Shown here: positions 19,228-24,019 of the stretch, in pieces
Layout: every line of letters begins with the position of its first letter
Position numbering within the stretch: position 1 is the stretch's first letter
NCBI GenBank assembly: GCA_030148775.1
Contig: JASBST010000070.1
Location: forward strand, 1 to 63,198
Reading direction: 5' to 3'
From: Thiogranum sp.
GTDB taxonomy: Bacteria; Pseudomonadota; Gammaproteobacteria; DSM-19610
DNA length: 63,198 bases
Program-made: the position numbers and the translations under genes
The notes under the pieces: generated by a model
Seen by the model: only the letters and a program-made list of their open reading frames with translations
Told to the model about the DNA's origin: nothing
Database searches by the model: none

Positions 19228-19446
19228 ATGGCAAGAGAAGACCACATTGAAATGGAAGGCACCGTTGTCGAAACGCTGCCCAATACGATGTTTCGCGTTG
19301 AACTGGAAAACGGTCACGTAGTGACCGCGCACATTTCCTGAAAAATGCGCAAGCACTATATTCGCATATTGACCGGCGACAAGGTGACCGTTCAGCTGAC
19401 GCCTTACGATCTCAGCAAAGGCCGCATCACCTACCGCGCCCGTTGA
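19228..19446 (+). pseudogene. infA: Translation initiation factor IF-1 with in-frame TGA at codon 38
   Basis: Read through, the frame encodes a complete 72-residue IF-1 ([22 protein letters not shown] and on, ending [10 protein letters not shown]). IF-1 binds the 30S A site and is essential in E. coli. Codon 38, in the invariant HISGKMRK stretch, is TGA at 19339-19341 where glycine (GGA) is expected. One G-to-T change explains it, and everything on either side is intact and conserved. An ATG two codons after the stop could restart a 34-residue tail that would not be functional. No selenocysteine-type element is evident. It may be a base error, a true nonsense mutation backed by another infA copy, or readthrough. 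Confidence 0.93.
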
Positions 19447-19467: not shown

Positions 19468-21729
19468 TTACAGCACCTCTTCCTCAATATCCACCTCGTG
19501 TACCAGACGCCCTTCTTCAGCGCGAATAATCAAGTGTCCGCCGTTCGCTAAGCGACCGAACAGCAGCTCCTCCGCCAGAGGCTTCTTGATATGCTCCTGG
19601 ATCAGACGCGCCATCGGCCGCGCACCCATCTTGGCGTCGAAGCCGTGCTCGGCCAACCATTCACGGGCCGAATTCTCGACATCCACGGTGACACCTTTCT
19701 CCTGCAATTGCGCCTCCAGTTCGTAGATGAACTTGTCAACCACACGGGTGATGACCGCCGGATCCAGCGGCTTGAACTGGATGACCGCGTCCAGACGGTT
19801 GCGGAACTCGGGGGTGAACAATTTCAGGATCGCCTCCATGCCGTCGCTGGAGTGATCCTGTGGCGTGAAACCGATCGACGGACGACTCATTTCCGAGGCG
19901 CCGGCGTTGGTGGTCATGACGATGACCACATTGCGGAAATCGGCCTTGCGGCCGTTGTTGTCGGTAAGCGTGCCGTGGTCCATGACCTGCAACAGCAGAT
20001 TGAATACATCGGGGTGCGCCTTCTCGATTTCATCCAACAACAGTACGGCATGTGGATTGCGTGTGACCGCCTCGGTCAGCAGGCCGCCCTGGTCGAAACC
20101 GACATAGCCGGGCGGCGCGCCGATCAGACGCGATACGGTGTGGCGCTCCATGTATTCCGACATATCGAAACGGATCAGCTCGATGCCCATGATCATCGCC
20201 AACTGGCGCGTGATCTCGGTCTTACCCACCCCGGTGGGACCGGCAAAAAGAAAAGAGCCAATGGGCTTCTCCTCGGTGCCGAGTCCGGAACGTGACATCT
20301 TGATGGCGCTGGCCATGGTCTCGATCGCTTCGTCCTGGCCGTAAACCACCATTTTCAGATCGCGCTCGAGCGTGCGCAGCGCATCCTTGTCCGAAGAGGA
20401 CACGGTCTTCGGCGGTATACGCGCGATCTTGGAAATGATGCTTTCGATATCGGCTACACCAATGGTCTTTTTGCGCCGCGACGGCGGCAACAGGCGCTGG
20501 TTGGCGCCCGCCTCGTCGATGACGTCGATGGCCTTGTCCGGCAGAAAACGGTCGTTGATATAGCGCGACGACAACTCCACCGCGGCGCGCAGCGCCTTGG
20601 CCGAATATTTCACCTCGTGATGATCCTCGAAGCGCGACTTCAGCCCCTTGAGAATACTGTAAGCCTCGTCCACGGTGGGCTCGGCCACGTCGATTTTCTG
20701 GAAACGCCGCGCCAACGCACGGTCCTTCTCGAAAATACCCCGGTACTCGTGGTAGGTCGTCGAACCGATACACTTCAGCTCACCCGAGGCCAGCATCGGC
20801 TTGACCAGATTGGAGGCGTCCATGACGCCGCCCGAGGCCGCGCCTGCGCCGATGATAGTGTGGATCTCGTCAATGAACAGTATCGCGCCGGGTTCCTTGC
20901 GCAACTGCGCCAAAACACCTTTGAGACGTTTCTCGAAATCGCCGCGGTACTTGGTGCCGGCAACCAGCGAACCCAGATCCAGCGAATAGATCGTGCTGTT
21001 GAGCAGCACCTCCGGCACTTCGCCGTCGACGATCAACTTGGCCAGTCCTTCCGCCAGCGCGGTCTTGCCGACCCCGGCCTCGCCGACGTACAGCGGGTTG
21101 TTCTTGCGTCGCCGGCAGAGGATCTGGATGGTCCGCTCCACCTCCAGGCGGCGCCCGATAAGCGGGTCGATCTTGCCATTAATCGCCATTTCGTTGAGGT
21201 TGGTGGCGAAGCTTTCCAGCGGTTTCTTGGGCGAGTTGTCCGTCGTCGCAGCGCCTTCGGATTCCGCCGCCGCGTCGTCTTCGCTCTGTTCGCCGGCCAC
21301 CTTGGAAATACCGTGGGAGATATAATTGACCACATCCAGGCGGGTAATGTCCTGCTTGTTGAGGAAATAGGCCGCCTGAGACTCCTGCTCGCTGAAAATA
21401 GCGACCAGCACATTGGCCCCGGTCACTTCTTTTTTCCCCGAGGACTGCACATGAAACACGGCCCGCTGCAGCACACGCTGGAAGCCCAGCGTCGGCTGGG
21501 TTTCGCGGTTGTCGTGACTGGGTAGCAGCGGCGTGGTTTCGTCCAGGAACGCGACCAGTTCCTTCTTTAGCCGGTCGATGTCGACACCGCAGGATTTCAA
21601 CACTTCGGCCGCCGTGGGATTATCCAGTAAAGCCAGCAATAGGTGCTCTACCGTCATGAATTCGTGACGTTTTTCTCTGGCCTCTTTAAATGCCAGGTTG
21701 AGGGTGAATTCCAACTCTTTGCTCAGCAT
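19468..21729 (-). CDS. clpA: ATP-dependent Clp protease ATP-binding subunit ClpA
   Basis: ClpA unfolds substrates and threads them into ClpP. The order is an N-domain that docks ClpS (residues 1-145), a first AAA+ module with GEAGVGKT near 216, and a second with GPTGVGKT near 496 followed by the LIGAPPGYVGFDQGG pore region. A C-terminal D2-small domain ends the protein. The RPSIGF stretch corresponds to the ClpP-binding loop. The 753 residues match E. coli ClpA. It lies 21 bases downstream of clpS in one operon. Confidence 0.97.
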   Translation of the reverse strand: MLSKELEFTLNLAFKEAREKRHEFMTVEHLLLALLDNPTAAEVLKSCGVDIDRLKKELVAFLDETTPLLPSHDNRETQPTLGFQRVLQRAVFHVQSSGKKEVTGANVLVAIFSEQESQAAYFLNKQDITRLDVVNYISHGISKVAGEQSEDDAAAESEGAATTDNSPKKPLESFATNLNEMAINGKIDPLIGRRLEVERTIQILCRRRKNNPLYVGEAGVGKTALAEGLAKLIVDGEVPEVLLNSTIYSLDLGSLVAGTKYRGDFEKRLKGVLAQLRKEPGAILFIDEIHTIIGAGAASGGVMDASNLVKPMLASGELKCIGSTTYHEYRGIFEKDRALARRFQKIDVAEPTVDEAYSILKGLKSRFEDHHEVKYSAKALRAAVELSSRYINDRFLPDKAIDVIDEAGANQRLLPPSRRKKTIGVADIESIISKIARIPPKTVSSSDKDALRTLERDLKMVVYGQDEAIETMASAIKMSRSGLGTEEKPIGSFLFAGPTGVGKTEITRQLAMIMGIELIRFDMSEYMERHTVSRLIGAPPGYVGFDQGGLLTEAVTRNPHAVLLLDEIEKAHPDVFNLLLQVMDHGTLTDNNGRKADFRNVVIVMTTNAGASEMSRPSIGFTPQDHSSDGMEAILKLFTPEFRNRLDAVIQFKPLDPAVITRVVDKFIYELEAQLQEKGVTVDVENSAREWLAEHGFDAKMGARPMARLIQEHIKKPLAEELLFGRLANGGHLIIRAEEGRLVHEVDIEEEVL

Positions 21730-22644: not shown

Positions 22645-23901
22645 TCACATATTGTCGACTATCGCCTGACCAAACGCGGAACAACTGAGTTTGGTCGCGC
22701 CGTCCATCAACCGTTCCAGATCATAGGTAACGGTCTTGCGCGCGATCGCCCCGGACAAACCTTTTACGATCAGGTCCGCCGAGTCGTTCCACCCCAGATG
22801 GCGTAGCATCATTTCCGCCGACAGAATCAGCGATGCCGGATTGACCTGGTCCTTGCCCGCGTACTTGGGCGCGGTACCATGGGTGGCCTCGAACAGCGCG
22901 ACGGTGTCGGAAAGATTGGCGCCGGGCGCCATGCCGATGCCGCCAACCTGGGCGGCCAGCGCATCGGAAATATAGTCACCATTCAGATTCAATGTGGCGA
23001 TGACACTGTACTCGGCCGGCCGCAGCAGAATCTGCTGCAGAAAAGCATCAGCGATAACATCTTTTACTATAATGTCACTGCCGGTATTGGGATTCTTGAA
23101 CTGACACCAGGGACCGCCGTCGATCTCGACCGCGCCGAACTCCTCGCGCGCCAATTCATAACCCCAGTTCTTGAAGGCGCCCTCGGTGAACTTCATAATA
23201 TTGCCTTTGTGCACCAGCGTCACCGAGTCGCGCTGCTGATCGATGGCGTATTGCAGCGCACGCCGCACCAGACGCTTGGTCCCTTCGGAGGAAACCGGTT
23301 TGACGCCGAGACCCGCCGTGTCGGGAAAGCGGATTTTGCTCACACCCATTTCGTTACGCAAAAAGTCGATAACCTTTTTGACTTCCGCGCTGCCCGCATC
23401 CCACTCGATACCGGCGTAAATATCTTAGGAGTTTTCCCGGAAAATCACCATATCGGTTTTCTCCGGCGCCTTCAGCGGGCTGGGCGTGCCGTCATAGTAG
23501 CGTACCGGGCGCAGACACAGATAAAGGTCGAGCTCCTGGCGTAAGGCGACATTGAGCGACCGGATACCGCCACCCACGGGCGTGGTGAGCGGTCCTTTGA
23601 TCGCGACGCTGAACTCCTTAACCGCCTGCAACGTTTCCTCAGGCAACCAGGTATTGTCACCGTAGATGCGATTGGATTTTTCCCCCGCAAAAATTTCCAT
23701 CCAGACGATCCGGCGTTGGCCGCCGAAAGCCTTTTCGACCGCGGCGTCCACGACCGCGCGCATCACCGGCGTGATATCCACCCCGATGCCGTCACCCTCA
23801 ATAAAAGGCACGATCGGCTGCGCCGGCACGTTAAGTGTCAAATCGTCATTGACGGTGATTTTTTCGCCCTCGTCGGGCACGACAATATTCTGATAACCCA
23901 T
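22645..23901 (-). pseudogene. icd: NADP-dependent isocitrate dehydrogenase with in-frame TAA at codon 159
   Basis: Read through, the frame gives a full 418-residue Icd, close to E. coli Icd (416). Icd makes 2-oxoglutarate and NADPH in the citric acid cycle. The AceK-phosphorylated serine is conserved (Ser115 in [10 protein letters not shown]), as are DGGPW and HGTAPKYAG. At 23425-23427 the coding strand has TAA where the family has GAA in [11 protein letters not shown]. Nothing else is broken. The C-terminal 238 residues could only start at a poor internal site. The start ATG gives [13 protein letters not shown] single G-to-T change, as in infA, explains the stop. Confidence 0.93.
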
Positions 23902-23936
23902 CTGCTTTCCCGGTTTCCTCAATGCAAGATCGCGGG

Positions 23937-23945
23937 ATTGTATCA
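23937..23945 (-). promoter_or_regulatory. Extended -10 promoter element of icd
   Basis: The reverse strand reads TGATACAAT, an extended -10 motif (TGnTACAAT), 36 bases before the icd ATG. The -35 region is weak, as is common for extended -10 promoters. Confidence 0.4.
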
Positions 23946-23988
23946 AATTGGGCGCACAATACACGGGCCATGACTGATCCCATACAAC

Positions 23989-24019
23989 AAAAAACCCCCG
24001 CACCTGTAAGGTGCGGGGG
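23989..24019 (-). terminator. Intrinsic terminator downstream of the secreted-protein gene
   Basis: On the reverse strand a perfect 10-bp stem (CCCCCGCACC with GGTGCGGGGG, 5-base loop) is followed by six T residues. It lies 30 bases past the stop of the gene at 24050-24967 and just before the icd promoter, insulating icd. It is the clearest intrinsic terminator in the window. Confidence 0.9.

Follow-up and report, generated by a model that had tools for sequence, protein, structure and literature searches.

The infA gene, which encodes IF-1, lies at 19228..19446 on the plus strand of the DNA analysed here (the window, a stretch of 63,198 nucleotides) and spans 72 codons plus a stop. Its frame runs from the ATG at 19228 to the TGA at 19444-19446 and is interrupted at codon 38 by an in-frame TGA at 19339..19341 on the same strand. 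An arginyltransferase-family gene lies upstream, and clpA and clpS are encoded on the opposite strand. The window is part of an assembly of 3,108,229 bases with an estimated completeness of 86.7%, whose source is a Thiogranum-like gammaproteobacterium; the protein of the gene upstream of infA shares 84% identity with its counterpart in Thiogranum sp. BWSM_145, the nearest named relative found. The assembly is fragmented into 111 contigs and, on that account, would be metagenome-derived.

On either side of the premature TGA the gene is a recognizable infA. The two pieces cover positions 1-35 and 37-68 of the 69 positions of TIGR00008, the NCBIfam model for infA, so that a single position is absent between them. 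Scored alone, the pieces reach 53.2 and 60.3 bits, each just below the cut-off of 61.15. Pfam family PF01176 is matched above its cut-off over positions 1-64 with one TGA inside the match, and when the stop is written as X the frame can be aligned with a solved IF-1 along its full 72 residues. As a member of TIGR00008 the gene therefore has the full-length family match, with a reading frame broken by the TGA at codon 38. The ATG at 19345, two codons past the stop (TGA AAA ATG), is capable of serving as a start, and the downstream half of the gene is intact.

Codon 38 encodes glycine (GGC, GGT, GGA or GGG) in all 30 related loci that were read, which bears out the claim of an earlier note on this DNA that an in-frame TGA occupies an invariant glycine of IF-1. 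That note also held the gene to be conserved on both sides of the stop, and the comparison with the nearest congener agrees: 17 codons differ synonymously, one has become a stop, and there are no other amino acid differences. This pattern demonstrates that infA outside the stop is under purifying selection and shows no sign of decay. Therefore, unless the base is wrong, selection must have preserved the protein up to a very recent time. The proposal that one G-to-T change separates the TGA from GGA holds relative to two congeners that carry GGA (L010 and L011), but not relative to the nearest congener, where the codon is GGC and lies two bases from TGA.

The same gene was followed through wider sets of genomes. 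Among 16 congeners, 14 have exactly one infA match and two have none; genus-wide, 15 of 17 genomes have one match and two lack one, and a stop occurs in the focal genome only. In 56 relatives an infA match was found in 54, with no stop in any of the 53 others with a match, and a class-wide family search gave a match in 353 of 369 genomes. That search, read for the presence and number of matches and not for a rate of stops, showed two or more family matches in a few genomes, among the matches listed. The earlier note had raised the possibility of a second infA; a genome-wide check gave no other match in the assembly, at its completeness of 86.7%. Among the papers listed by literature searches, none was pertinent to stops in infA or in assembled metagenomes.

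Five further genes of the assembly are interrupted by premature stops. Within the window, icd (NADP isocitrate dehydrogenase; 22645..24003, minus strand) contains an in-frame TAA at 23425..23427 on the same strand, where four of four congeners (G001, G007, G012 and G013) have a glutamate codon. The RF2 gene, prfB, carries a TAG on contig C76 (L151 / L170:12742-12744) at a serine conserved in 14/14 congeners read. On contigs C60 and C4, respectively, gmk and xseA are stopped at positions that encode glutamate in 16/16 congeners each. Finally, purC on contig C77 has a stop where 6 of 13 congeners have glutamate; the nearest congener has GAG there, with neighbours otherwise identical. This site is not conserved (CAG in 3/13 congeners), so the purC stop may stem from another substitution. 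For all five genes, relatives of high identity have a sense codon at the site and an unbroken frame. Family searches of 17 genomes gave no stops inside the congener matches of prfB, gmk and xseA, and two purC stops flagged in congeners by such a search proved to be normal gene ends.

Four of these genes (icd, xseA, gmk and purC) came from a coding-potential search for stops flanked on each side by coding signal in the same frame. It covered the window together with 20 stretches from elsewhere in the assembly (354,500 bases) and then 60,000 bases more, for a total of 414,500 bases or ~13% of the assembly. A targeted RF2 search, made to assess a possible changed code, identified prfB, and its stretch was then sampled knowingly. 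The infA gene is below the length that the scan can handle and was itself the prompt of the search. Substitution class played no role in picking any of the six genes. The scan returned 62 candidates in the full sample, 52 of them within the initial 354,500 bases that include the window; 28 of the 62 were in the best-scoring frame. Candidates were first sorted by eye, not blind, and those 28 were then aligned with relatives. Five of the 28, prfB included, showed a high-identity run-through with a sense codon in a relative. Ten had no match in the other genomes compared and were judged by eye to be junctions or wrong-strand frames. In the remainder the stop is also present in the nearest relative, or the run-through is found only at low identity or with gaps. 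Among the rejected candidates, L155:12335 has its stop in the nearest congener too, though more distant relatives align through it; in the doubtful L159 and L164 the sequences before and after the stop match different families or no family; and one on contig C76 that looked broken by eye was dropped as an apparent wrong-strand frame with a 50% alignment to the nearest congener. A broad homology scan for stops yielded mostly wrong-strand frames, and only its results for infA and prfB were used. A pattern search of viral contigs gave no match.

As a control, 444,516 bases from five congeners were scanned, giving 68 candidates, of which 23 were in the best-scoring frame. One clear premature stop was found, a TAA in G006 (L123:4832-4834) where relatives have acidic residues, in a gene that looks to encode an EAL-domain protein. 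A second gene, in G012, is possibly broken by a TAG (L113:6799-6801): its upstream piece matches Pfam MetOD1 and ends 17 positions short, and its downstream piece matches nothing. The other control candidates were judged to be junctions or wrong-strand frames by eye or by alignment, some of them with no relative for comparison. The contrast in rate between the focal assembly and its congeners is thus modest, five genes besides infA against one clear and one possible case. This assembly stands out for having its stops in core genes, all within a single substitution class.

Of the six stops, one is TGA, two are TAA and three are TAG, and at these sites the nearest congener has Gly, Ser or Glu. 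Each is compatible with a single G:C-to-T:A change. Among the single changes that make stops from this genome's codons, 35% are G:C-to-T:A, or 14% when weighted by the genome's own synonymous spectrum; the chance that six of six would fall in this class is about 0.002 under uniform changes and 7e-6 under the synonymous spectrum. With outgroups used to polarise changes across the window and contig C76, lineage-specific G:C-to-T:A changes number 157 in the focal lineage versus 83 in the nearest congener (Fisher p 1.6e-5). Changes in the focal lineage also include more G>A and fewer A>C, so some of the G:C-to-T:A excess may reflect real evolution or drift in base composition. The NCG/CGN context reported for oxidation artefacts is found at five of the six stops, which is not a significant enrichment (52% of targets expected, p 0.13). 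In clpA, two adjacent codons (21178..21183, minus strand) read Ile-Asn where four of four congener loci have Met-Lys, with one G-to-T change in each codon. This double change is of the same substitution type and is possibly the same kind of error.

Stops made by the same kind of base change in five or more other genes of the assembly lead us to conclude that the infA TGA is very probably an error in the consensus of a metagenome-derived assembly and belongs to a set of G:C-to-T:A errors scattered through it. A wrong base was among the readings offered in the earlier note, and it is now the best supported. The living population would most likely carry a glycine codon at position 38 and make an ordinary IF-1, and the T at 19339 would not be the allele supported by the population's reads. 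Costello et al. in 2013 reportedly described C:G>A:T sequencing artefacts that arise from guanine oxidation. That guanine oxidised during shearing leads to C:G>A:T errors is documented (PMC5521083). In the present case, oxidation in the sample or during library preparation would create the wrong bases, and thin read cover would let them into the consensus. The implied consensus error rate is near 5e-4 per target site, a figure that would need low coverage.

If this is correct, false premature stops in the assembly probably number in the tens: six stops in 414,500 bases, or four when only the scan's own finds are counted, extrapolate to about 30 to 45 over 3.1 Mb. Claims of gene loss based on this assembly need care. 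The case also serves as a warning. A stop created by one base in a core gene of a metagenome assembly can pass for recoding, and even without reads that reading is strongly disfavoured once other core genes are examined for the same class of substitution.

Were the TGA a genuine nonsense mutation, carried by some or all of the population, this infA would be a decaying copy and IF-1 would come from a second infA outside the assembled 86.7%. The incompleteness of the assembly leaves room for such a copy, as do the few genomes of the class with two or more family matches among those listed. We nevertheless consider this unlikely, given that 14 of 16 congeners have exactly one match and two have none, and that the gene shows purifying selection. 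Moreover, with like stops in icd, prfB, gmk, xseA and purC, a spare copy would be required for each essential gene among them. Both prfB and gmk are essential in E. coli. The same is true of infA (PMC9398171).

Alternatively, the TGA could be real and read through, or translation could stop and restart at the ATG two codons further on, giving the protein in two halves. The start-capable ATG at 19345 and the intact downstream half would suit a restart, but this methionine is simply part of the conserved GKMRK or GRMRK stretch in all 30 related loci read. Read-through had been listed as an option in the earlier note; it loses ground here, since the five TAA and TAG stops in the other genes would each require similar rescue, and no stop anticodon is present among the tRNAs found by ARAGORN, a set that is incomplete. 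With stops in several core genes, read-through or decay of each is unlikely, and we regard read-through or restart at infA as very improbable. The fuller version, in which the lineage makes a two-polypeptide IF-1 by stop-restart, or relies on strong read-through, and tolerates nonsense more broadly in its core genes, is likewise very improbable.

The shared substitution class would also be expected of a real mutator strain that had lost GO repair and truly carried the stops through oxidative damage. All six stops fit G:C-to-T:A, and the lineage-specific excess of such changes points in the same direction. Yet mutY and fpg, the two genes checked for stops, are both present without any, so loss of GO repair is not indicated. 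A living cell could also hardly bear stops in infA, prfB and gmk together. A mutator origin is accordingly given very little probability, and consensus error remains our preferred explanation for the six stops.

Reassignment of TGA to glycine in this lineage, as in Gracilibacteria and Absconditabacteria, has a negligible probability: such a code would suit the glycine found at codon 38 in each of the 30 related loci read, but the five remaining stops, TAA or TAG, stand at Glu and Ser, and the 53 other genomes with an infA match have no stop in the gene. A changed code is excluded: the premature stops include all three stop codons at sites of three different amino acids, the assembly contains an RF2 gene, although an interrupted one, with RF2 matches above the family cut-off in 14 congeners, and TGA is a common terminator, ending 28 of the 52 window genes listed. 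The same evidence upholds the earlier opinion that a changed code was unlikely. The infA stop is almost certainly ordinary and involves no new way of reading the genetic code.

The reassignment of UGA to glycine is known from Gracilibacteria and Absconditabacteria (PMC4032931; PMC8629427), and the likeness to infA here is a TGA at a conserved glycine. In a code of that type TGA is unused as a terminator and RF2 is absent. In contrast, only one of the six premature stops of this assembly is a TGA, the others being TAA or TAG at other residues; the RF2 gene, itself interrupted, is present; and TGA commonly terminates genes. A tRNA with a UCA anticodon would belong to such a code; the incomplete set that ARAGORN found at 26 tRNA places contains none. 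The oxidation artefacts of PMC5521083 provide another comparison. As presented in that report they are low-fraction variants in deep reads, whereas the changes in this assembly are consensus bases whose context enrichment is not significant. Like those artefacts, the changes described here belong to the one substitution class and are scattered over unrelated genes, and the infA stop lies in the CGG>CTG context that is named for them.
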